Positions 3,492-60,572 of a DNA stretch of 64,000 nucleotides are shown here, in pieces. Where the stretch lies: the NCBI RefSeq assembly GCF_001577265.1, contig NZ_CP014517.1:4252153-4316152 (forward strand). The letters run 5' to 3'. The stretch's first letter is position 1; every line of letters begins with the position of its first letter. A program made the translations under genes and the position numbers. Source of the DNA: Variovorax sp. PAMC 28711 (GTDB taxonomy: Bacteria; Pseudomonadota; Gammaproteobacteria; Burkholderiales; Burkholderiaceae_C). The notes beneath the pieces were generated by a model. That model saw only the letters and a program-made list of their open reading frames with translations, did not search any database and was not told the DNA's origin.

Positions 3492-4866
3492 GGTGGAATC
3501 CAGGTTTCGCAGTGGAGTTCGGGACTGGATTCTTCGTCAGGTCACGAAGCGCGCGCTTGATGTCGTCGAGAAGAAGCTGCGCGAGATCGCGGCTGACGCC
3601 GTGGCGGATCAGGATGCGTTGGACCACGGTGTCCTTGCGGTTCGCAGGAAGCGGATACGACGCGATCTGCCAGCCCCGCATCCGCACCCTCTCGGACAAG
3701 TCGTAAAGGGTGAAGCCGTGGTCGGCATCGGTCAGCCGATAGGCAACCGCGGGCAGTCCGCCGTGGCCGTCGTAGACCATCTCGAACGGCTCGAGCTTGG
3801 CCAGTTCGGCGCTCAACCACTGCGCCGTATCGGAACAGGCTTGCTGAACGGCCGTGTAGCCGTCCCACCCGAGGCGCAGAAAGTTGTAGTACTGCGCGAT
3901 GATCTGGCCACCCGGGCGCGAGAAGTTCAGCGCAAAGGTCGGCATGTTGCCGCCCAGGTAATCGACGTTGAAGATCAGCTCTTCGGCCAGGTCTTTCTTC
4001 GATGCCCAGATGACCCAGCCCACGCCGAGCGGCGCAAGGCCGTACTTGTGCCCAGAGGCGTTGATCGACCGGACCCGGTCGATCTGAAAGTCCCAGACGA
4101 GGTCGCGCTGGATGAACGGCGCGATGAATCCGCCAGAGGCGGCATCCACATGGATCGGGATGTCGAGCCCGAGGTCGCGCTGCATGGCATCGAGTTCGCG
4201 CGCCAAGGCCTCGACGGGCTCGTAAACGCCTGTGAAGGTGACGCCCAGCGTCGCGACGACGCCGATGGTGTTTTCGTCGCAGTGGCCGCGCAGGTCTTCG
4301 GGCCTGAGACCGAGCGCATCACCCTCGAGCGGTACCTCGCGGATCTCGACATCGAAATACCGGGCGAACTTGTGCCAACAGATCTGCACCGGGCCGGTCA
4401 CGATGTTGGGCTTGCTGAAATCCTTGCCTTCCGCTTCCCGACGCTTGCGCCACTTCCATTTGAATGCGAGGCCGCCGAGCATGGCCGCTTCGCTGGAACC
4501 GGTCGTCGAGCAGCCCACTGTCTCTCGCGATTGCTGGGCATGCCAGAGGTCGGCAAGGATGTGGACACATCGGCTTTCGAGCTCGGCCGTCTGCGGATAC
4601 TCGTCCTTGTCGATCATGTTCTTGTCGATCGCATCCGCCATCAGGTGCTTGACCTCGTCCTCTATCCAGGTCGTGCAAAAGGTCGCGAGGTTCTGACGGG
4701 CATTGCCGTCGAGCAGCAACTCGTCACGCACCAAGGCGTAGGCGGCGCGAGGCTCGGTGCGCCCTTGGGGCAGTCGGTATTTGGGAAGGCTGTCCTGCGA
4801 AGCCTTGGTCGCATAGATATCGCGCAGGCTGGATTGGTCGTCGAGGTCGACGTGATGAATTGGCAT
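3484..4866 (-). CDS. gadB: Glutamate decarboxylase (PLP-dependent)
   Basis: 460 residues, close to E. coli GadB. It decarboxylates glutamate to GABA with consumption of a proton. The cofactor site is intact: TTGSSEAA for phosphate binding near 121-128, HVDAASGGF with Asp241, and the PLP lysine Lys274 in ASGHKYGL. The C-terminus ends in FHHG. In E. coli GadB a C-terminal histidine closes the active site at neutral pH, so the two histidines here may do the same (inference). The chosen ATG at 4866 matches the family N-terminus; the frame continues upstream to 5433 but there it runs through the remnant at 5119-5356. A modest AAAGAAAAG ribosome site precedes it. The gene overlaps the downstream antiporter. 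Confidence 0.95.
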   Translation of the reverse strand: MPIHHVDLDDQSSLRDIYATKASQDSLPKYRLPQGRTEPRAAYALVRDELLLDGNARQNLATFCTTWIEDEVKHLMADAIDKNMIDKDEYPQTAELESRCVHILADLWHAQQSRETVGCSTTGSSEAAMLGGLAFKWKWRKRREAEGKDFSKPNIVTGPVQICWHKFARYFDVEIREVPLEGDALGLRPEDLRGHCDENTIGVVATLGVTFTGVYEPVEALARELDAMQRDLGLDIPIHVDAASGGFIAPFIQRDLVWDFQIDRVRSINASGHKYGLAPLGVGWVIWASKKDLAEELIFNVDYLGGNMPTFALNFSRPGGQIIAQYYNFLRLGWDGYTAVQQACSDTAQWLSAELAKLEPFEMVYDGHGGLPAVAYRLTDADHGFTLYDLSERVRMRGWQIASYPLPANRKDTVVQRILIRHGVSRDLAQLLLDDIKRALRDLTKNPVPNSTAKPGFHHG

Positions 4867-5118
4867 GGTCTTTTCTTTGTTAAACGCTGACTGAGCGGGC
4901 CGAGATCCGGAAATGCATCGCGCTCTATCGCGAGGATGCACAGTGGCCTTGGGAATGCACGACGGGGGCGGTCTCAGCATCAGCAGCGAGGCCGCGCGAC
5001 GTGCTGCAACTTTGGGCTTGGGCAACCTGTGCGTCTGTGCGGTAACGCACGTTGGTTTCAAGCACTGCTGGCTTTGGCGTGTTGGACGGTATGTCCAAGG
5101 CAAAGGCAGTCGCCGATC

Positions 5119-5356
5119 GCAGGCCTCTTTGCTTTCGCGGATGCGGCGCAAGTCGATCCACGCCTGCGAGAACTGGTGCACGAACAGCGGGCCGGCGCAC
5201 AGGAAGTCAACGTCGTAAAGGTTCGCCCACGGGCAGGTCTCGGTCCACCTCGAAGCCGGCCGCCATGAGCCTGTGCGTCTCCCAGTCCAACCCCAGGACG
5301 CACAGCACGATGGCCTCGTTGTAGCCCTGCCAGCCGTAGTTGGAGAAGCCGCATTC
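5119..5356 (-). pseudogene. Frameshifted remnant of a glucoamylase-domain protein
   Basis: Two adjoining minus-strand frames together resemble part of the glycoamylase-like domain family (PF10091). The first (about 5234-5356) reads CGFSNYGWQGYNEAIVL, and the second (about 5119-5229) reads WANLYDVDFLCAGPLFVHQF followed by SQAWIDLRRI. A frameshift near 5230 separates them, and neither frame has a family-length flank. The intact family has several hundred residues. The rest of the 4867-5490 gap shows no other gene or clear signal. Loss of an ancestral envelope or glucan-related gene is the simplest reading. Confidence 0.65.
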
Positions 5357-5490
5357 AGGCAACGCTCCGCCGCGACAGGGATAAGACCGCGCGCGGCCGA
5401 CACGTGGGACGGCAGCGACCCGATCCGGCGCATTGCGGCCGGCAGTACGACAGTCGCGCTGCCCTGACGGCATCGCGCCTGCCAGGCGGG

Positions 5491-6369
5491 TCAGTCCGCC
5501 GGGGCCGGCGCCAGCAGCATCCGGACCATCGCTTTCAGGTCCGCCTGCAAACGGTCGAATCCAGGCTGCACAAGTGCGAGGCTAGTCTCGTCCATGTAAA
5601 GCCGCCGGTTGATCTCGACCTGAATGCTGTGCCGACCTTCCGCCGGCCGGCCATGCCGTCTCACCAGTTCCACGCCCTTGTACGGATGGTTGTATGACAC
5701 GCTGTAGCCGCGGCCACTCAGGAACGCACAGAGTTGGTGTGACAGGGCCGGATCGGCGGCGGTGCCGTCGCGGTCACCGATGACGAAGTCCGCATGCACC
5801 AGCCCCGGGAAATCGGTCGCGTGGCTGGCGGCGACGGCGGGCATCGAGTGGCAGTTCAGATGCACGCTGCGCCCATGGCGGGCGTGGGCCGCGTCGATCG
5901 CCGCGCCGACCGCTGCGTGGTACGGCGTCCAGCATCGTTCGATGCGGCTCTCGACCTCGGCCACGGACAGCAGCCGGTCGTAAATCGGCAAGCCTTCGTC
6001 CGTGTATTTCCAGACCAGGCCCTTGCCCAGACGCACCTTCGACAGCACCGCCGGATCGGTGGCGACCGGGTGCGGCCAAGGGGCATCGAGCAGCGTGCTG
6101 TCGACTTCGGTCAGGTCGCGGTTGGCATCGAGATAGCTGCGTGGAAACAGCGCCTCGGTCCAGGCCGCGCCCAGCGCCGGCGCGAAGGCATAGAGCTTCT
6201 CGACGTGCGTGTCTTCCGCGCGGCGCAGCGTGGCCCGCTCGCAGCACGAGCGGAAATCGTCGGGGTAGACGGTGCCGCTGTGCGGCGAGTCGAGCACCAG
6301 CCCGGTCGTGCCTGGATGACTGACGACCATGGCAGCGTCGTGATGAATCGGTTGCGGAGCGGAATGCAT
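5491..6369 (-). CDS. N-formylglutamate amidohydrolase family protein
   Basis: 292 residues of the FGase/HutG family of zinc-dependent amidohydrolases. Family features include the LVLDSPHSGTVYP opening, the EDTHVEKLY segment, SYLDANRDLTEVD, the HLNCHSMPA metal-site region and the VEINRRLYMDE block near the C-terminus. The enzyme hydrolyses N-formyl-L-glutamate or a related N-acyl amino acid. No hut genes for histidine breakdown are nearby, so its substrate may differ. It follows a Bug receptor by 26 bases in the same direction and is probably co-transcribed with it. The ATG at 6369 is chosen; MVVS at residue 14 is an alternative start. Confidence 0.88.
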   Translation of the reverse strand: MHSAPQPIHHDAAMVVSHPGTTGLVLDSPHSGTVYPDDFRSCCERATLRRAEDTHVEKLYAFAPALGAAWTEALFPRSYLDANRDLTEVDSTLLDAPWPHPVATDPAVLSKVRLGKGLVWKYTDEGLPIYDRLLSVAEVESRIERCWTPYHAAVGAAIDAAHARHGRSVHLNCHSMPAVAASHATDFPGLVHADFVIGDRDGTAADPALSHQLCAFLSGRGYSVSYNHPYKGVELVRRHGRPAEGRHSIQVEINRRLYMDETSLALVQPGFDRLQADLKAMVRMLLAPAPAD

Positions 6370-54554: not shown

Positions 54555-55478
54555 TCAGGCGGCCGCGGTCGGCCCGCTGGTCGTGTTGACCGCGACGCCT
54601 TCGGCCTGCGCCACCTGAAAACGCTGCAACAGGCTGTGCAGCATTTCAGTGGAGAGCCCGTGGATCACCAGCCGGTGGCCGGCGCGCAAGGTCGACAGCG
54701 GCACCAGCGGATGCTTGTTATTGACCAGCACCAGATGCTCCGGCGCCGCGAGCAGCGTGGCCGTGTAGATACCGATGGTCTCGTCCAGCTGCAGCGAGTT
54801 GGCCGCGCGCCAGAAGTCGTTGTCGGTCAGCATCAGCTGGTAGAGCGGCGTGAAGAGCTCGATGGCGCTCTGCAGGTCGAGGAAATTGAGCTTGCCGCGC
54901 GGCATGTCTTCGAGCTTCAGGTCCGGGTTGCGAATCATCGACAGATCGAGGTGCTGGGGCTTGCGCAGTTCGAGGCCCTGCTCCCGCAGCGCCTTGTTCA
55001 GGCGAATCACGAAGTTGAAGAGGTTCAGGTCGTGCTTCAGGAACATGTGGTCCTTCAGCGCGTCGATGTCGGCCGGCTCCAGCGGGCTCGTCGCCACCGG
55101 TGCCGGCGAATTGCGCCCGATGAAGGCAAGCACCTGCGAGCCCAGGTGGAAGTGCCGCAGGATCAGCCAGTTCGCCTCGGGCGACACGAAGCGCTTGAGC
55201 CCCCACGCGAGAAAGCGGTGCAGCAGCCCGGAGTGCGACCAGTTGCGCGGCACGAACACCTTCACCACCTGCAGCAGGATGATGAAAGCGCGCGCCAGTG
55301 GCCGGAAGAAAGGCAACAGGTACTGGCGCGAGGCCGAGCTCGAATCGGTGAGCCACGCGGTCTTCACGTCGTCGGGCAGCGGCGTGCTCTGGTCGAGATA
55401 GAGCGCGAGCCAGGGGCTCGGGTCGCGCTCATCCCAGGGCTTCGAAAGAAAGTCCGGGGGTGTGGGTGTCGTGCTCAT
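54555..55478 (-). CDS. Protein of unknown family, last gene of the ketosynthase/desaturase operon
   Basis: 307 residues from the ATG at 55478. One hydrophobic helix lies near 67-85 (FIILLQVVKVFV). The remaining protein is rich in long helices, with the distinctive FLAWGLKRFVSPEANWLILR, HMFLKHDLNLFNFVIRLN and PLYQLMLTDNDFWRAANSLQ. Several His, Asp and Glu residues are spread through it but I see no established active-site motif and do not recognise the family. It starts 10 bases after the KS-oxygenase fusion and belongs to the same transcript, so it probably acts in that pathway. Confidence 0.75.
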   Translation of the reverse strand: MSTTPTPPDFLSKPWDERDPSPWLALYLDQSTPLPDDVKTAWLTDSSSASRQYLLPFFRPLARAFIILLQVVKVFVPRNWSHSGLLHRFLAWGLKRFVSPEANWLILRHFHLGSQVLAFIGRNSPAPVATSPLEPADIDALKDHMFLKHDLNLFNFVIRLNKALREQGLELRKPQHLDLSMIRNPDLKLEDMPRGKLNFLDLQSAIELFTPLYQLMLTDNDFWRAANSLQLDETIGIYTATLLAAPEHLVLVNNKHPLVPLSTLRAGHRLVIHGLSTEMLHSLLQRFQVAQAEGVAVNTTSGPTAAA

Positions 55479-55488
55479 GGCGTGGTCT

Positions 55489-57390
55489 TCAACGGTCCTG
55501 CGTGACATGCTGGAACTGCATGAGGTACAGCGCGGCGGTGTGTTTGGCTGTGTCGATGATCTGCTGCGGCGCGCGGCCGGTGGTGTCGAGCGACATCACC
55601 ATTTCGACGGCCATCAGCCAGCGGCTCAAATGGTGCTCGTCGTTGTGGCCGTGGTACTCGAGGAAACGGAACACGTCGGGCGGCAACGACAACGATGCCT
55701 TCAGCAGTGGCAACAACGCGGGCACGATGCGCTGACCGGTGCCTTCGATGATGTAGATCGCGCCCAGCAAGCCGATCGGGTCGCGCGTGGCGGCCAAGCC
55801 GTGCAGGTAGGCGTTGAGCGCCTCGCCACCCGGGTTGCGCCGCAGCGCGGTGATCTCGCTCACCGTGCCGCCAGCCTTGCGGTAGTCGTCGAACAGGATC
55901 TGGAAATCGTTCTGCTCCTCGCCGGCATGTACGCCGATCAGCGCCGCGAGCGCGGCGTAGTCGCCGCTCAACGAAGCCGCGCCTTCGCGCATCCAAAGGC
56001 TGCCTTCGCGCACCTGTGGCACCCAGTGTTCCATCCAGTTCAGGTAGTCGGGCGGCGTGAAGCGGCGCTCGCGGATCTTGCGCACGAGCGGTGTGCGCCA
56101 GACCTGTGAGCGGTAGTCGTGCCAGATCGACGCGAGCTCGGTGAGCAGGTCGCGCAACGCGGCCGGTGCCTGTGCGGGGTCGTGCGGCGGCGCGATCACG
56201 TCCGCTTTCTGCGTCGCGATCTCGGCCTGGACCGTTGGCCGGGCCTCGGACTTCGAAGCGCCCTCGCCTTCCACCTCGAGCAGCATGTAGGCCGCCATGA
56301 AGCGACCCGACTCCGGCACGTAGCAAAAGATCTGTTCGCCCGGTTTCACGGTCCGCGTGTGCAAGAACTCGGCCAGCATGATCAGGATCGACGCCGCGCC
56401 GGTGTTGCCGCGCCACGCCAGGTTGCTCCACCAGCGTTCGCGCGGAATCGCGAGACCCGCCTTGCCCATCAGGTCTTCCACGACCGGGATGAATTTCTCG
56501 GACGAGTAGTGGCACAGAAAGTGGTCGACACGGGCCGGGTCGACCCAGCCGTCCTTGACCAGCGTCGCGTACTCGTGGATGCCGATGTCGAACAGATGCG
56601 GCAGCAGCCGGATGTCTTGCCGCAGCGAGAGTGCGCCCGCGGCTTCAGCTTCCTGCCAGGAGCCGTAGTCGAGGTGGCCCTTTTGCCGGTCTTCGGTGAG
56701 GCCCAGTTGCATGCAGACCGGATAGTCGCCGGAGAACGCGCGCTGGTGCACCCACTTCAGCCGCAGCTTGAGCCCCGGCTGGCCCGCGAGTGATGCGGCA
56801 TTCGACAGCAGCAACGCACCGGCACCATCGGACAGCATCCAGCGCAGGAAGTGCGAATCGAAGTCCGTTTCGTAGCCGCGCGCCGCGAAGCGCGAGCGCT
56901 TGAAAAGCCGCGATGGCAGCTCGCTCGCGACCGCCAGCGCGCTGGTGTGTGCGCCGAGCTCGATGCCCTGCGCCGCCGCCTGGATCGCCGACACGCCCGC
57001 GGCGCAAATGCCGTGCACCGACAACGTTTCCATCGGCGGCGCGGCGAGTTCGCCCTGCAACATGTTGGCGAAGCCGGGCATCAGCGTGTCGCCGCCCGAA
57101 GAGCCGGTCGCGAGCAGCGACACGCTCGCGAGATCGACGCCACCGCGCTGAAGGCAATCGCGCACGGCACCGGCTGCGAGTTGCGCGTTGTTGAACACCG
57201 TTTCGCCTTCGGCATCGATCGCGTAGTGGCGTTGGCGGATGCCGTTCTCGGCCAGGATGCGGCGCTTGATCCGCTGCGACATGCGATTGAGTGGCGCGAT
57301 GAACGCATCCATCTGCTCGTTCCCGATGGGTGCGCCCGGCATGAAGTAGCCGGCGCTCTGGAGGTAGACGCTTTTGAAAGGAACAGGCAT
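55489..57390 (-). CDS. Fusion: FabH/DarB-like ketosynthase plus heme-oxygenase-like (candidate diiron) domain
   Basis: 633 residues. Residues 1-375 are a ketosynthase III fold with Cys129 (GICAAGVSA), His294 (FLCHYSSEKF) and Asn329 (AWRGNTGAAS). The ILAENGIRQRHYAID and FNNAQL segments recall DarB-type ketosynthases that make dialkylresorcinols. Residues about 405-633 are a helical heme-oxygenase-like domain. It carries Glu549 (IIEGTGQ) and the H580-x3-D584-x2-H587 triad, in the same pattern as the metal ligands of CADD-type non-heme diiron oxidases. The first pair of ligands is less clear; His488, Glu491 and Glu492 are candidates. The likely chemistry is acyl condensation coupled to an oxidative step. 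Short gaps place it in an operon with a desaturase and hydroxylase. Confidence 0.85.
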   Translation of the reverse strand: MPVPFKSVYLQSAGYFMPGAPIGNEQMDAFIAPLNRMSQRIKRRILAENGIRQRHYAIDAEGETVFNNAQLAAGAVRDCLQRGGVDLASVSLLATGSSGGDTLMPGFANMLQGELAAPPMETLSVHGICAAGVSAIQAAAQGIELGAHTSALAVASELPSRLFKRSRFAARGYETDFDSHFLRWMLSDGAGALLLSNAASLAGQPGLKLRLKWVHQRAFSGDYPVCMQLGLTEDRQKGHLDYGSWQEAEAAGALSLRQDIRLLPHLFDIGIHEYATLVKDGWVDPARVDHFLCHYSSEKFIPVVEDLMGKAGLAIPRERWWSNLAWRGNTGAASILIMLAEFLHTRTVKPGEQIFCYVPESGRFMAAYMLLEVEGEGASKSEARPTVQAEIATQKADVIAPPHDPAQAPAALRDLLTELASIWHDYRSQVWRTPLVRKIRERRFTPPDYLNWMEHWVPQVREGSLWMREGAASLSGDYAALAALIGVHAGEEQNDFQILFDDYRKAGGTVSEITALRRNPGGEALNAYLHGLAATRDPIGLLGAIYIIEGTGQRIVPALLPLLKASLSLPPDVFRFLEYHGHNDEHHLSRWLMAVEMVMSLDTTGRAPQQIIDTAKHTAALYLMQFQHVTQDR

Positions 57391-57399
57391 GTCGTCGGT

Positions 57400-58311
57400 T
57401 CAGTGGGTGGTTGGCTTCACAGCCATGAGCGAGTGGCTGCGAAAGCGCGGCAGCACCGCGCCGAGCAGGTAGACGCGCAGCATGTACGGCACCAGGCCGC
57501 GTTCGTTGAGGGCGGGGTCGACGCGGTGGCGGTAGTGCGCGCGGTGCAGCCGGGTGAGTTCGGACCAGTGGGCATGCGGGTTCTCGTGGTGAGCGGTGTG
57601 GAGCCCGATGTTGAACAGGAGCGGGTTGACCAGACCCTCGAAGTTGCGCGCGTAGTTGAGCGTGCGCCCTTGCGTATCGCCAGACGCTCCCGGCGGATGC
57701 CCATCCGCATGTGCGTGCTGCAGGTAGTTGGTCGCGAGCAGCCAGTGCAGGCCGTGCAGCTGCGGCACGATCACGAAGACGAGCGCCTTCTTCCAGTCGA
57801 TGGCGAGCAGCACCACCCACGAGCCGAGCCACACGCCGTACTGCGCGACGCAGTAGCCGAAGGCACCGGAGCGTTGGCGTCGCAGCGCCTTCAACCAGTT
57901 GATGAAGAGCGGATAAAGAACCCAAGCGGCCTGCAGCGGATGCAGGAGGTAGCCGGTCAGATGATTGGTGTCGCCGCCCGCGAAGCGATAGGTGCGCGCA
58001 ACGTCTTTCGGTCCATGGCGATGCCGATGGTGGTTGGCGACGTGAGCCGGCCAGAAGACGAAAGTCGGATGGCCTTGAAGCAGCGTGATGCCGAAGTCCG
58101 TCACGCGATTGGCGGTGCGACCGCGCCACATGCGCAGGTGCGTGTGGTTGTGGTGAATCACGCCGATGCCGAGCGTGAGGAACAGCAGCAGCGCGTAGAG
58201 CGGCCATGAGAAACCATTGAACCATTGCCAAGCCGCGAGCGCGGGGAGCGCGGCGAGGTAGGCGAGGCTTTGCCAGTCGCGGAGGTTGCGCAATCGCGGT
58301 CGCTCGCGCAT
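57400..58311 (-). CDS. Fatty acid desaturase-like membrane enzyme
   Basis: 303 residues with four or five membrane helices. Three histidine boxes are intact: HNHTH (54-58), HVANHH (90-95) and HTAHH (238-242), which bind the diiron centre of integral membrane desaturases and hydroxylases. It probably acts on an acyl chain or acyl-protein. ATG at 58311 is chosen because it lies one base after the stop of the upstream gene; 9 bases separate its stop from the KS fusion. Confidence 0.9.
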   Translation of the reverse strand: MRERPRLRNLRDWQSLAYLAALPALAAWQWFNGFSWPLYALLLFLTLGIGVIHHNHTHLRMWRGRTANRVTDFGITLLQGHPTFVFWPAHVANHHRHRHGPKDVARTYRFAGGDTNHLTGYLLHPLQAAWVLYPLFINWLKALRRQRSGAFGYCVAQYGVWLGSWVVLLAIDWKKALVFVIVPQLHGLHWLLATNYLQHAHADGHPPGASGDTQGRTLNYARNFEGLVNPLLFNIGLHTAHHENPHAHWSELTRLHRAHYRHRVDPALNERGLVPYMLRVYLLGAVLPRFRSHSLMAVKPTTH

Positions 58312-58312
58312 G

Positions 58313-59077
58313 TCAGCTTTTTTGCCGCGCCCGGAACGCATTCAATTGCGCATCGGCTGCGTCACCCGCCAGCCGTGTCCTGAACAACCGGTCCATGAAG
58401 GTGAACTGGAAGCCGTAGTTGCCGCTGTGACACGCATGGTGCAGATGGTGGCGCCGGCTCGCGGCAAACCAATGGCCATACGACACGCGCGTGAAGAAGT
58501 CGTAGTTGGCATGCCCAACATTGTTGAAGAACAGGCTGAAGATCGGCACCGATGCGAGCGCCCAGAAGCTGAAGTCGTGCACCAGCATCGGCAGCAGGAT
58601 CACATTGCCCAGCATGGCCGCCTCGATCGGATGGAAGCTGTAGCTCGAGAACGGCGTGCTCACCATCGAGCGGTGATGCGGGCCGTGGAAGCGACGCAGC
58701 CAGCGCGTGTGCAGCAAGCGGTGGTTGATCCAGAAATGCACGTCGTTCCAAACCGCCAGCACCAGGATCTCGGCGGCGATACGCCAGCCCGACGGGTCTA
58801 CAGCGAGCCGGGCCCAACCCAGCTGCAGCAATCCCCACGGGAACACCATGCCAAGCCCGAAAATCAGGATCGACAGGCCCGACTGCGTGAACTCCTCGCG
58901 CAACTGCCCGGCGCGCAGCGGCCGGGGGTCGAGCACGCGCCCGATAGCGAGCGCAGGCAGCAGCTTGCGCGTGAGCCACCAGGTGATCGCACCGAAGCTG
59001 AGGTAGATGCTGCCGAAGAACAGCAGACCCCAGGCCATGGCCTGGATTGCGGAGAGGGACTGGAAAATTTGTGCCAC
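58313..59077 (-). CDS. Sterol desaturase/fatty acid hydroxylase superfamily protein
   Basis: 254 residues with about four membrane helices. Histidine motifs are HFWINH (114-119), HGPHH (131-135), SFHPIE with His149, and HHLHHACH (210-217). These form the diiron site that hydroxylates or desaturates lipids. It is the first gene of the four-gene minus-strand operon and is 61 bases from the divergent aldehyde dehydrogenase. Confidence 0.92.
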   Translation of the reverse strand: MAQIFQSLSAIQAMAWGLLFFGSIYLSFGAITWWLTRKLLPALAIGRVLDPRPLRAGQLREEFTQSGLSILIFGLGMVFPWGLLQLGWARLAVDPSGWRIAAEILVLAVWNDVHFWINHRLLHTRWLRRFHGPHHRSMVSTPFSSYSFHPIEAAMLGNVILLPMLVHDFSFWALASVPIFSLFFNNVGHANYDFFTRVSYGHWFAASRRHHLHHACHSGNYGFQFTFMDRLFRTRLAGDAADAQLNAFRARQKS

Positions 59078-59138
59078 AGCCGGAGTATCTCAGCACCGCT
59101 CGCGAGCGGATCCGCGACGCTTGCAGGAGAATTCCGCC

Positions 59139-60572
59139 ATGCAACTGAATTTCATCGCCAACGCCAACGTGCCGTCCGCCTCCGGCCGCACCCTCCCCGT
59201 CATCGATCCTTCCGATGGCCAGGTCTTCGACGAGCTGCAGCGCAGCAACGCCGACGACATCGATTCCGCGGTGCGCGCAGCGCGCGACTGCTTCGACAAC
59301 GTCTGGCACAAGGTGAGCGCGGCCGACCGCGGCCGGCTGCTCTACAAGCTTTCGCAGAAGATCGCCGAGCACACCGGCGAGCTCGCGCTGCTGGAGCAAC
59401 GCGATTGCGGCAAGCCCGTGAAGCAGGCGCGCGCCGATGCACTGGCGCTGGTGCGCTACTTCGAGTTCTACGCCGGCGCCTGCGACAAGCTGCACGGCGA
59501 AACCATTCCGTACCAAGACGGCTACAGCGTCTTCACCTGGCGCGAGCCGCACGGCGTCACCGGCCACGTCATTCCGTGGAACTACCCGATGCAGATCTTC
59601 GGGCGCAGCGTCGGCGGCGCGCTGGCGGCGGGCAATGCGTGTGTGGTCAAGCCGGCGGAAGACGCCTGCCTGTCGCTCATCCGCGTGGCACAACTGGCAG
59701 CCGAAGTCGGGTTCCCGGCGGGCGCACTGAACATCGTCACCGGCTACGGCCATGAGGTCGGCGATGCGCTCGCGCGGCATCCGGGCATCGACCACATCAG
59801 CTTCACCGGCAGCCCGTCGGTCGGCACGCTGATCCAGCAGGTCGCGGCGGAGCGACATTGCCCGGTCACGCTCGAGCTGGGCGGCAAGAGCCCGCAGATC
59901 ATCTTCGCGGACGCCGACCTCGGCGCCGCGATTCCGGTGCTCATCAACGCGATCGTGCAGAACGGCGGCCAGACCTGTTCGGCCGGCTCGCGCGTGCTGA
60001 TCGAGCGCGAGGTGTACGAGCTGGTGCTCGAGCGCCTCGGCCACGCCTTCGAGGCGCTGCGCGTCGGCCCGGCCGCGATGGACCTCGACGTCGGTCCGCT
60101 GATCCGCCAATCGCAGCAGCAGCGCGTGTGGGACTTCCTGAGCGATGCACAGCACGACGGCATCCCGATGGTGGCGCAAGGCATCGTCGTCGAGGAAGCG
60201 CCCGAGACCGGCTTCTACCAGGCGCCCACGCTGCTGCGCGACGTGCCGGTGATGCACCGCTTGGCGCAGGAAGAAGTCTTCGGCCCGGTGCTCGCCGCGA
60301 TGCAGTTCAGCGACGAAGACGAAGCCGTCTCGCTCGCCAACGCCACGCAGTTCGGCCTGGTCGCCGGCGTGTGGACGACCAACGGCGCGCGCCAGTTCCG
60401 CATGGCCAAGCGCGTGCGCGCCGGCCAGGTGTTCATCAACAACTACGGCGCGGGCGGCGGTGTCGAGCTGCCTTTCGGCGGCGTGAAGTCGTCGGGCTAC
60501 GGACGCGAAAAGGGCTTCGAGGCGCTGTACGGGTTCACCACGTTGAAGACCGTGGCGGTGCGACACGGTTAA
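59139..60572 (+). CDS. Aldehyde dehydrogenase family protein
   Basis: 477 residues. The NAD(P)+-dependent ALDH fold has IPWNYPMQI, FTGSPSVGTLI, the general base in LELGGKSPQI and the nucleophile Cys in GGQTCSAGSR. Substrate range cannot be read from these motifs; betaine-aldehyde and other aliphatic aldehydes are common for this subgroup. GCAGGAGA lies 8 bases before the ATG at 59139. The divergent arrangement with the lipid operon suggests it may oxidise an aldehyde from that pathway. Confidence 0.92.
   Translation: MQLNFIANANVPSASGRTLPVIDPSDGQVFDELQRSNADDIDSAVRAARDCFDNVWHKVSAADRGRLLYKLSQKIAEHTGELALLEQRDCGKPVKQARADALALVRYFEFYAGACDKLHGETIPYQDGYSVFTWREPHGVTGHVIPWNYPMQIFGRSVGGALAAGNACVVKPAEDACLSLIRVAQLAAEVGFPAGALNIVTGYGHEVGDALARHPGIDHISFTGSPSVGTLIQQVAAERHCPVTLELGGKSPQIIFADADLGAAIPVLINAIVQNGGQTCSAGSRVLIEREVYELVLERLGHAFEALRVGPAAMDLDVGPLIRQSQQQRVWDFLSDAQHDGIPMVAQGIVVEEAPETGFYQAPTLLRDVPVMHRLAQEEVFGPVLAAMQFSDEDEAVSLANATQFGLVAGVWTTNGARQFRMAKRVRAGQVFINNYGAGGGVELPFGGVKSSGYGREKGFEALYGFTTLKTVAVRHG

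Follow-up and report, generated by a model that had tools for sequence, protein, structure and literature searches.

The ketosynthase (KS) StlD of the stilbene pathway and the related DarB belong to a subfamily whose members join two acyl chains into a ring. In dialkylresorcinol clusters, darB is labelled 'DAR-cyclase' and darA 'DAR-aromatase', and according to PMC3949708 darA adjoins darB, followed by a hypothetical gene and then by a gene for a BtrH-like protein. Compounds of the 2,5-dialkylcyclohexane-1,3-dione type are described as intermediates of the dialkylresorcinol route (PMC4414361). Here we describe a locus in Variovorax sp. PAMC 28711 (NZ_CP014517.1), situated in the final 64 kb of a single-contig genome of 4.3 Mb; this stretch of 64,000 nucleotides is referred to as the window. 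The locus encodes a StlD/DarB-like KS fused to a heme-oxygenase-like dimetal oxidase (HDO) domain, followed by a member of the function-unknown family DUF6999, and its closest named relatives, judged by the locus, belong to Variovorax. KS, HDO, and DUF6999 form a recurrent three-gene unit, which is apparently uncharacterised. The locus appears to be a well-delimited variant and not a new kind of system, with a DarB/StlD-like KS that seems to have exchanged the aromatase for an HDO and DUF6999.

Genes were located through open reading frames and Pfam matches, and gaps were read from the sequence. The fusion gene (55489-57390, minus strand) matches ACP_syn_III_C (PF08541) and then Haem_oxygenas_2 (PF14518) on one frame, which bears out a preliminary description of this DNA as far as the fusion of a ketosynthase to a heme-oxygenase-like domain is concerned. 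The KS domain spans residues 1-375 (56266..57390, minus strand) and the HDO domain about residues 410-633 (55489..56163, minus strand, stop codon included; 33.0 bits to PF14518, cut-off 28.9). The adjacent gene (54555..55478, minus strand) encodes 307 amino acids from an ATG at 55478 in a frame that opens at 55508; its product, previously an 'unknown protein', matches DUF6999 (PF22523; 432.1 bits, cut-off 27). DUF6999 was searched for in 398 genomes of the phylum, in 147 of the order and 385 of the class of genome G223, and in 300 of the window's order, taken as Burkholderiales from its named relatives, and was present in 9, 2, 6, and 13 of these, respectively. The positives amount to 22 different genomes of patchy distribution, two of which are incomplete (84% and 74%); Caulobacter vibrioides, in the control set, is also DUF6999-positive. 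KS and HDO directly adjoin DUF6999 in all 22 genomes (21 by BLAST, plus the window). They are fused in all 14 positive genomes of the window's order and also in a record titled 'Gammaproteobacteria bacterium' (L046). In seven alphaproteobacteria, one gammaproteobacterium, and a Pseudoalteromonas plasmid, KS and HDO are encoded separately, with the order unchanged; here the first name stands for G223 and its kin from another class of the phylum and the second for G368, from the window's GTDB class and a different order, both as presumed class names.

The presence of DUF6999 in every sampled core follows from the fact that the cores were found via DUF6999. For specificity, the whole fusion was searched against the 398 phylum genomes (E <= 1e-20, at most three candidates scored per genome), and matches covering the HDO occurred in the same nine DUF6999 genomes (seven fused, two split) and in no other. 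Distances of KS, HDO, and DUF6999 correlate (Spearman 0.62-0.76, 171 pairs of 19 loci), a pattern that vertical descent alone would give as well. The preliminary description envisaged a five-gene locus that also included a hydroxylase (HYD), a desaturase (DES), and a divergent aldehyde dehydrogenase (ALDH), whereas the core consists of the three genes found side by side. Chance proximity of all these genes, each acting on its own, would agree with the inconstancy of DES, HYD, and ALDH. For the core, this explanation is already contradicted by the adjacency in genomes of wide kinship and by the fusion of two of the three genes; for ALDH it may still apply, and as an account of the locus it is extremely improbable.

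Among solved KSs, the fusion KS is nearest to StlD (PDB 5gk0) by sequence and by fold, and both the StlD fold and the Cys-His-Asn triad of StlD/DarB members (Cys129-His294-Asn329) are present. StlD is a stand-alone protein as deposited, whereas the KS of the window is fused to an HDO and that of the split relatives is encoded beside one. With the DarAB dialkylresorcinol, flexirubin, and arcuflavin clusters, the locus shares a KS hit by the same StlD/DarB subfamily model, the intact triad, and an adjoining gene for a dedicated oxidative partner. In the KS tree, the fused KSs form one group (100/100), and the HDO-linked KSs lie on one side of a branch supported by 86/74. The preliminary remark that the locus contains no cyclase is misleading, because StlD/DarB members themselves close the ring; what is missing is DarA. 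It is probable that the KS carries out a two-chain condensation, joining two fatty chains.

The partners of such KSs differ among genomes. Eleven further genomes of the 398 match the fusion over the KS only, as does a second KS in the DUF6999-positive genome G379. Beside the KS of every one of the 11 KS-only loci, a small protein and a conserved protein of some 305 residues are encoded; counted by links, 9 of these stretches also have a BtrH-like protein. At L147, NCBIfam names the small protein and the BtrH-like protein DarG family and DarH, respectively, and the gene order of the KS-only loci agrees with the dar order given in PMC3949708. The 305-residue protein has no family name in the profile libraries searched; we call it DarA because of its position beside a DarB-type KS, as in the published order. 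A DarA-like profile, built from nine proteins of which eight rows come from the 11 KS-only genomes, matches all 11, each time beside the KS; its matches in G387, G054, G272, and G379 are to proteins not built into it. The profile gave no match in 21 of the 22 DUF6999 genomes, including that of the window, and found no DarA-like gene beside any of the 22 KS-HDO-DUF6999 loci. The exception is G379, where the match lies beside the second DarB-type KS on another contig. Conversely, at the thresholds applied, no KS-only genome among the 398 had a match to HDO or DUF6999. In the sampled Pseudomonadota, the neighbours of the two KS types exclude each other. A single cell can contain both systems, since G379, a genome of the same genus, carries a KS-HDO-DUF6999 operon (L103) and a separate DarA-DarB-like pair (contig C19:298251-300318). 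As HDO and DUF6999 both occupy the position of DarA, replacement of DarA by the two is the simplest proposal; that the HDO has taken DarA's place has, in our estimate, somewhat less than an even chance of being correct. A DarB-like KS and a DarA-like gene also occur, together with acyl carrier proteins, a P450, and a FAD monooxygenase, on the mobilizable linear Streptomyces plasmid NZ_CP108315 (L095), possibly as a plasmid-borne alkylresorcinol-type cluster.

The HDO domain resembles the HDOs UndA, SznF, CADD, and BesC in its PF14518 match (41.2 bits in a split relative) and in retaining the core-3 motif H-x3-D-x2-H (H580, D584, H587) and the core-2 glutamate (E549). It differs from these enzymes in the attached ketosynthase and in core helix 1, which in a register taken from sequence alone reads H488-x3-E492-x2-D495: the canonical E-x2-H is replaced by E-x2-D, and an extra invariant histidine precedes the glutamate by four residues. 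At this helix, the PDB 3dde alignment is shifted by one position. None of the seven candidate metal ligands varies among 100 rows (91 fused, 9 split; at least two genomes occur twice), and this pattern is most naturally read as a rearranged metal site. Characterised HDOs mostly use three histidines and three carboxylates (PMC13108848). The structure model of the fusion is helical over the HDO part, and the fold-search list was filled by KS matches. A second HDO of the same genome, with E-x2-H at core 1 as judged by eye, is encoded at G000:C1:3431493-3435014 (L002); it shares 24-25% identity with that of the fusion and lies, again by eye, between an AMP-binding ligase and a short-chain dehydrogenase/reductase (SDR). 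On the V. boronicumulans plasmid NZ_CP138497 (L132), a similar HDO set lies after a 'thermostable hemolysin' (PF12261) and before a TPR protein.

The DUF6999 protein is all-helical in its structure model (mean pLDDT 83.2). Its residues H119, H159, D160, D242, H283, and E288 are invariant in alignments of 11 and 47 rows, and H266 is invariant in the larger and nearly so in the smaller one. These invariant histidines and acidic residues suggest that the protein is possibly metal-dependent. Searches of the PDB by sequence and fold found no solved relative, and no publications on DUF6999 were found in the literature searched. The locus gives this family a testable setting, in which the split form offers an easy comparison for the fused one and C. 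vibrioides a tractable positive species.

We tentatively regard the locus as a form of the DarB/StlD-type ring-lipid pathway that does without DarA, a proposal about which we remain slightly more doubtful than confident. The KS would join two acyl chains from fatty acid synthesis and, to judge from its nearest family, would probably form a 2,5-dialkyl-cyclohexane-1,3-dione or a carboxylated precursor of it. The HDO, as a non-heme iron-type oxidase, would then oxidise or oxidatively decarboxylate the KS product, which is the step of DarA, and DUF6999 would carry out a companion, possibly metal-dependent step. In the lineage with the fusion, the two membrane enzymes, desaturase and hydroxylase, might subsequently act on the alkyl chains or on the ring. 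The end product would be an oxidised lipid of two chains associated with the membrane, and the locus may thus make an undescribed oxidised lipid. A more far-reaching version, which we consider rather unlikely, is that the fusion is a single-polypeptide enzyme whose KS closes the dialkyl ring and whose tethered HDO, with the histidine moved by about one turn and an E-x2-D, aromatises or hydroxylates it. DUF6999 would then be a new metalloenzyme family, and the product an unseen class of membrane phenolic or quinone-like lipids in Variovorax, Achromobacter, and Bordetella, with the split form in more distant Pseudomonadota. A reaction of this kind on a tethered lipid or polyketide would widen the chemistry of the HDOs, a growing enzyme family.

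Several observations weigh against the assignment to a DarA-free ring-lipid pathway. The KS scores 322.6 bits with the StlD/DarB model NF005293 and 252.3 bits with the DarB model, below the curated cut-offs of 450 and 550, respectively, and may therefore not close a ring. The KSs of split relatives (322.0 and 372.1 bits) and the Streptomyces KS (381.9) also stay below 450, whereas the canonical DarB of L147 (579.5) and a Prevotella protein (492.1) pass. Support for the branch that separates HDO-linked from DarB KSs is only moderate, and the DarB-like KS from Streptomyces, despite its DarA-like neighbour, falls beside the HDO group. Confidence in the structure model of the fusion is intermediate (pLDDT 73.9, pTM 0.56). 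The core-1 pattern departs from E-x2-H, so the chemistry of the HDO may differ or be lost. The four genes on the minus strand include neither an acyl carrier protein (ACP) nor a regulator. Finally, two DarB-like KSs on Bacteroidota plasmids (L130 and L131) have neither DarA nor an HDO nearby, and loss of DarA therefore need not mean replacement. If the KS does not close a ring, it could perform a head-to-head condensation as OleA does, and the HDO could decarboxylate or cleave the resulting beta-keto acid in the manner of UndA, giving a long-chain ketone, an alkene, or a shortened acid. We consider this unlikely, as StlD is clearly the nearest KS by sequence and fold.

Alternatively, the locus might be a dialkylresorcinol cluster of the ordinary type that makes the usual product and in which an unlinked enzyme oxidises the ring. 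This would suit the two Bacteroidota plasmid KSs without DarA nearby and a 'resorcinol' region of Achromobacter mucicolens for which DarB is given as core gene (PMC9045304). Another A. mucicolens strain carries the operon (L051), presumably at the same locus as that region. However, the lack of DarA matches in nearly all DUF6999 genomes, the lack of HDO and DUF6999 matches in the KS-only genomes sampled, and the KS score below the DarB cut-off make this explanation improbable. The preliminary description was right that this is not a textbook resorcinol cluster: DarA matches are absent from the locus, which has a fused HDO and DUF6999 instead, and no DarG, DarH, or ACP gene was recognised by eye among the flanking frames of the window. 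Given the DarB-like KS, the antiSMASH class 'resorcinol' is nonetheless the probable label for such loci, although it implies a DarA-type aromatisation. Resorcinol clusters have been predicted in Variovorax and Alcaligenes in reports whose relevant passages leave the genes unnamed (PMC9872631, PMC10946135, PMC10213877); for one Variovorax they give two resorcinol regions, of which the first is combined with an aryl polyene and the other stands by itself. V. paradoxus S110 was mined for DarAB (PMC3949708). Published 'resorcinol' calls in Achromobacter, Variovorax, and Alcaligenes may include the KS-HDO-DUF6999 locus, and the genome-mining label may thus hide this unit, in which a non-heme iron oxidase would do DarA's job.

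In the window, the core is preceded on the minus strand by the two membrane enzymes of the preliminary description. HYD, the first gene of the operon (58313..59077; 254 amino acids, GTG start), is an FA_hydroxylase-type protein (PF04116; 76.3 bits, cut-off 31) whose histidine boxes are unchanged in 12 of 12 alignment rows, and DES (57400..58311; 303 amino acids) is an FA_desaturase-type protein (PF00487; 73.5 bits, cut-off 29.7), both of the membrane histidine-box type. The gaps between HYD, DES, the fusion gene, and DUF6999 are 1, 9, and 10 bases, as described before. No promoter-like site was found at the locus, and the sole terminator-like site lies inside the fusion gene, so that the operon call rests on spacing and conservation. 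Protein searches yielded at least 2795 relatives of the fusion and at least 4086 of DUF6999; as these were mostly close kin, the wide genome sampling was added. A contig scan found 214 encoding relatives, of which the best 80, and hence close kin, were kept. Of these 80, 77 have the complete series HYD, DES, KS-HDO, and DUF6999 in this order on a single strand, which is far beyond chance; the exceptions are L017 (a contig of 3.3 kb), L066 (without HYD), and L069 (without HYD and DUF6999). The four genes are thus predicted to form one conserved lipid-type operon, and the gene set and core assignment are near certain.

The ALDH gene (59139..60572, plus strand; PF00171, 506 bits) begins 61 bases from HYD in the opposite direction, as stated earlier. 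It lies within 300 nucleotides of HYD in only 2 of the 77 loci and was dropped as a member of the system. In 30 of the 77 it occurs elsewhere in the locus (28 close matches at a distance of 2.2-2.8 kb and two weak paralogues), and ALDH is therefore regarded as a neighbour by shared gene order and not as a partner. A lack of joint conservation in relatives, named in the preliminary description as what would refute it, was observed for ALDH but not for the four minus-strand genes. The earlier reading of a conserved lipid-type operon with a KS-HDO fusion and an unknown protein thus stands, without the ALDH, the five-gene core, and the claimed lack of a cyclase.

HYD and DES accompany the fused lineage. 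Both occur in 11 of its 14 genomes in the window's order and at least one in all 14, L098 having DES only and L127 and L129 HYD only; BLAST detected neither in the stretches around the alphaproteobacterial and gammaproteobacterial cores. As this conservation suggests, they would be accessories of the fused lineage, with reactions predicted from their families. In both gammaproteobacterial loci, the place that the desaturase occupies in the fused lineage is taken by a small membrane-type protein rich in conserved His. This uncharacterised protein of 185-188 amino acids (L094:11439-11996, L097:11441-12007) lies directly upstream of the split KS and has no significant Pfam match.

The locus might also be a stress-protective or lipid-repair module, whose HDO acts on peroxides or damaged acyl chains while the KS makes a carrier lipid only. 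DtpC, another HDO likened here by class alone, protects Acinetobacter from desiccation-linked oxidative stress (PMC13232832), and lipid-handling genes adjoin some of the loci. These genes vary with lineage, however, and inspection of ten stretches by eye revealed no recurring stress gene, L120 alone having groES/groEL-like genes upstream, so that we consider a stress function quite improbable. Immediately upstream of HYD, 29 of the 77 relatives have a PLD-family gene (e.g., L010:3607-5286), as does L100 from a different lineage (4478-5635); the operon of the window has none beside it. An LplT-PlsC-AMP-ligase-like fusion adjoins the locus in L096. In L098, from a genome of the window's taxonomic order, a diacylglycerol kinase gene, dgkA (PF01219; 8171-8557), overlaps the end of DUF6999 by four bases, another hint at lipid metabolism.
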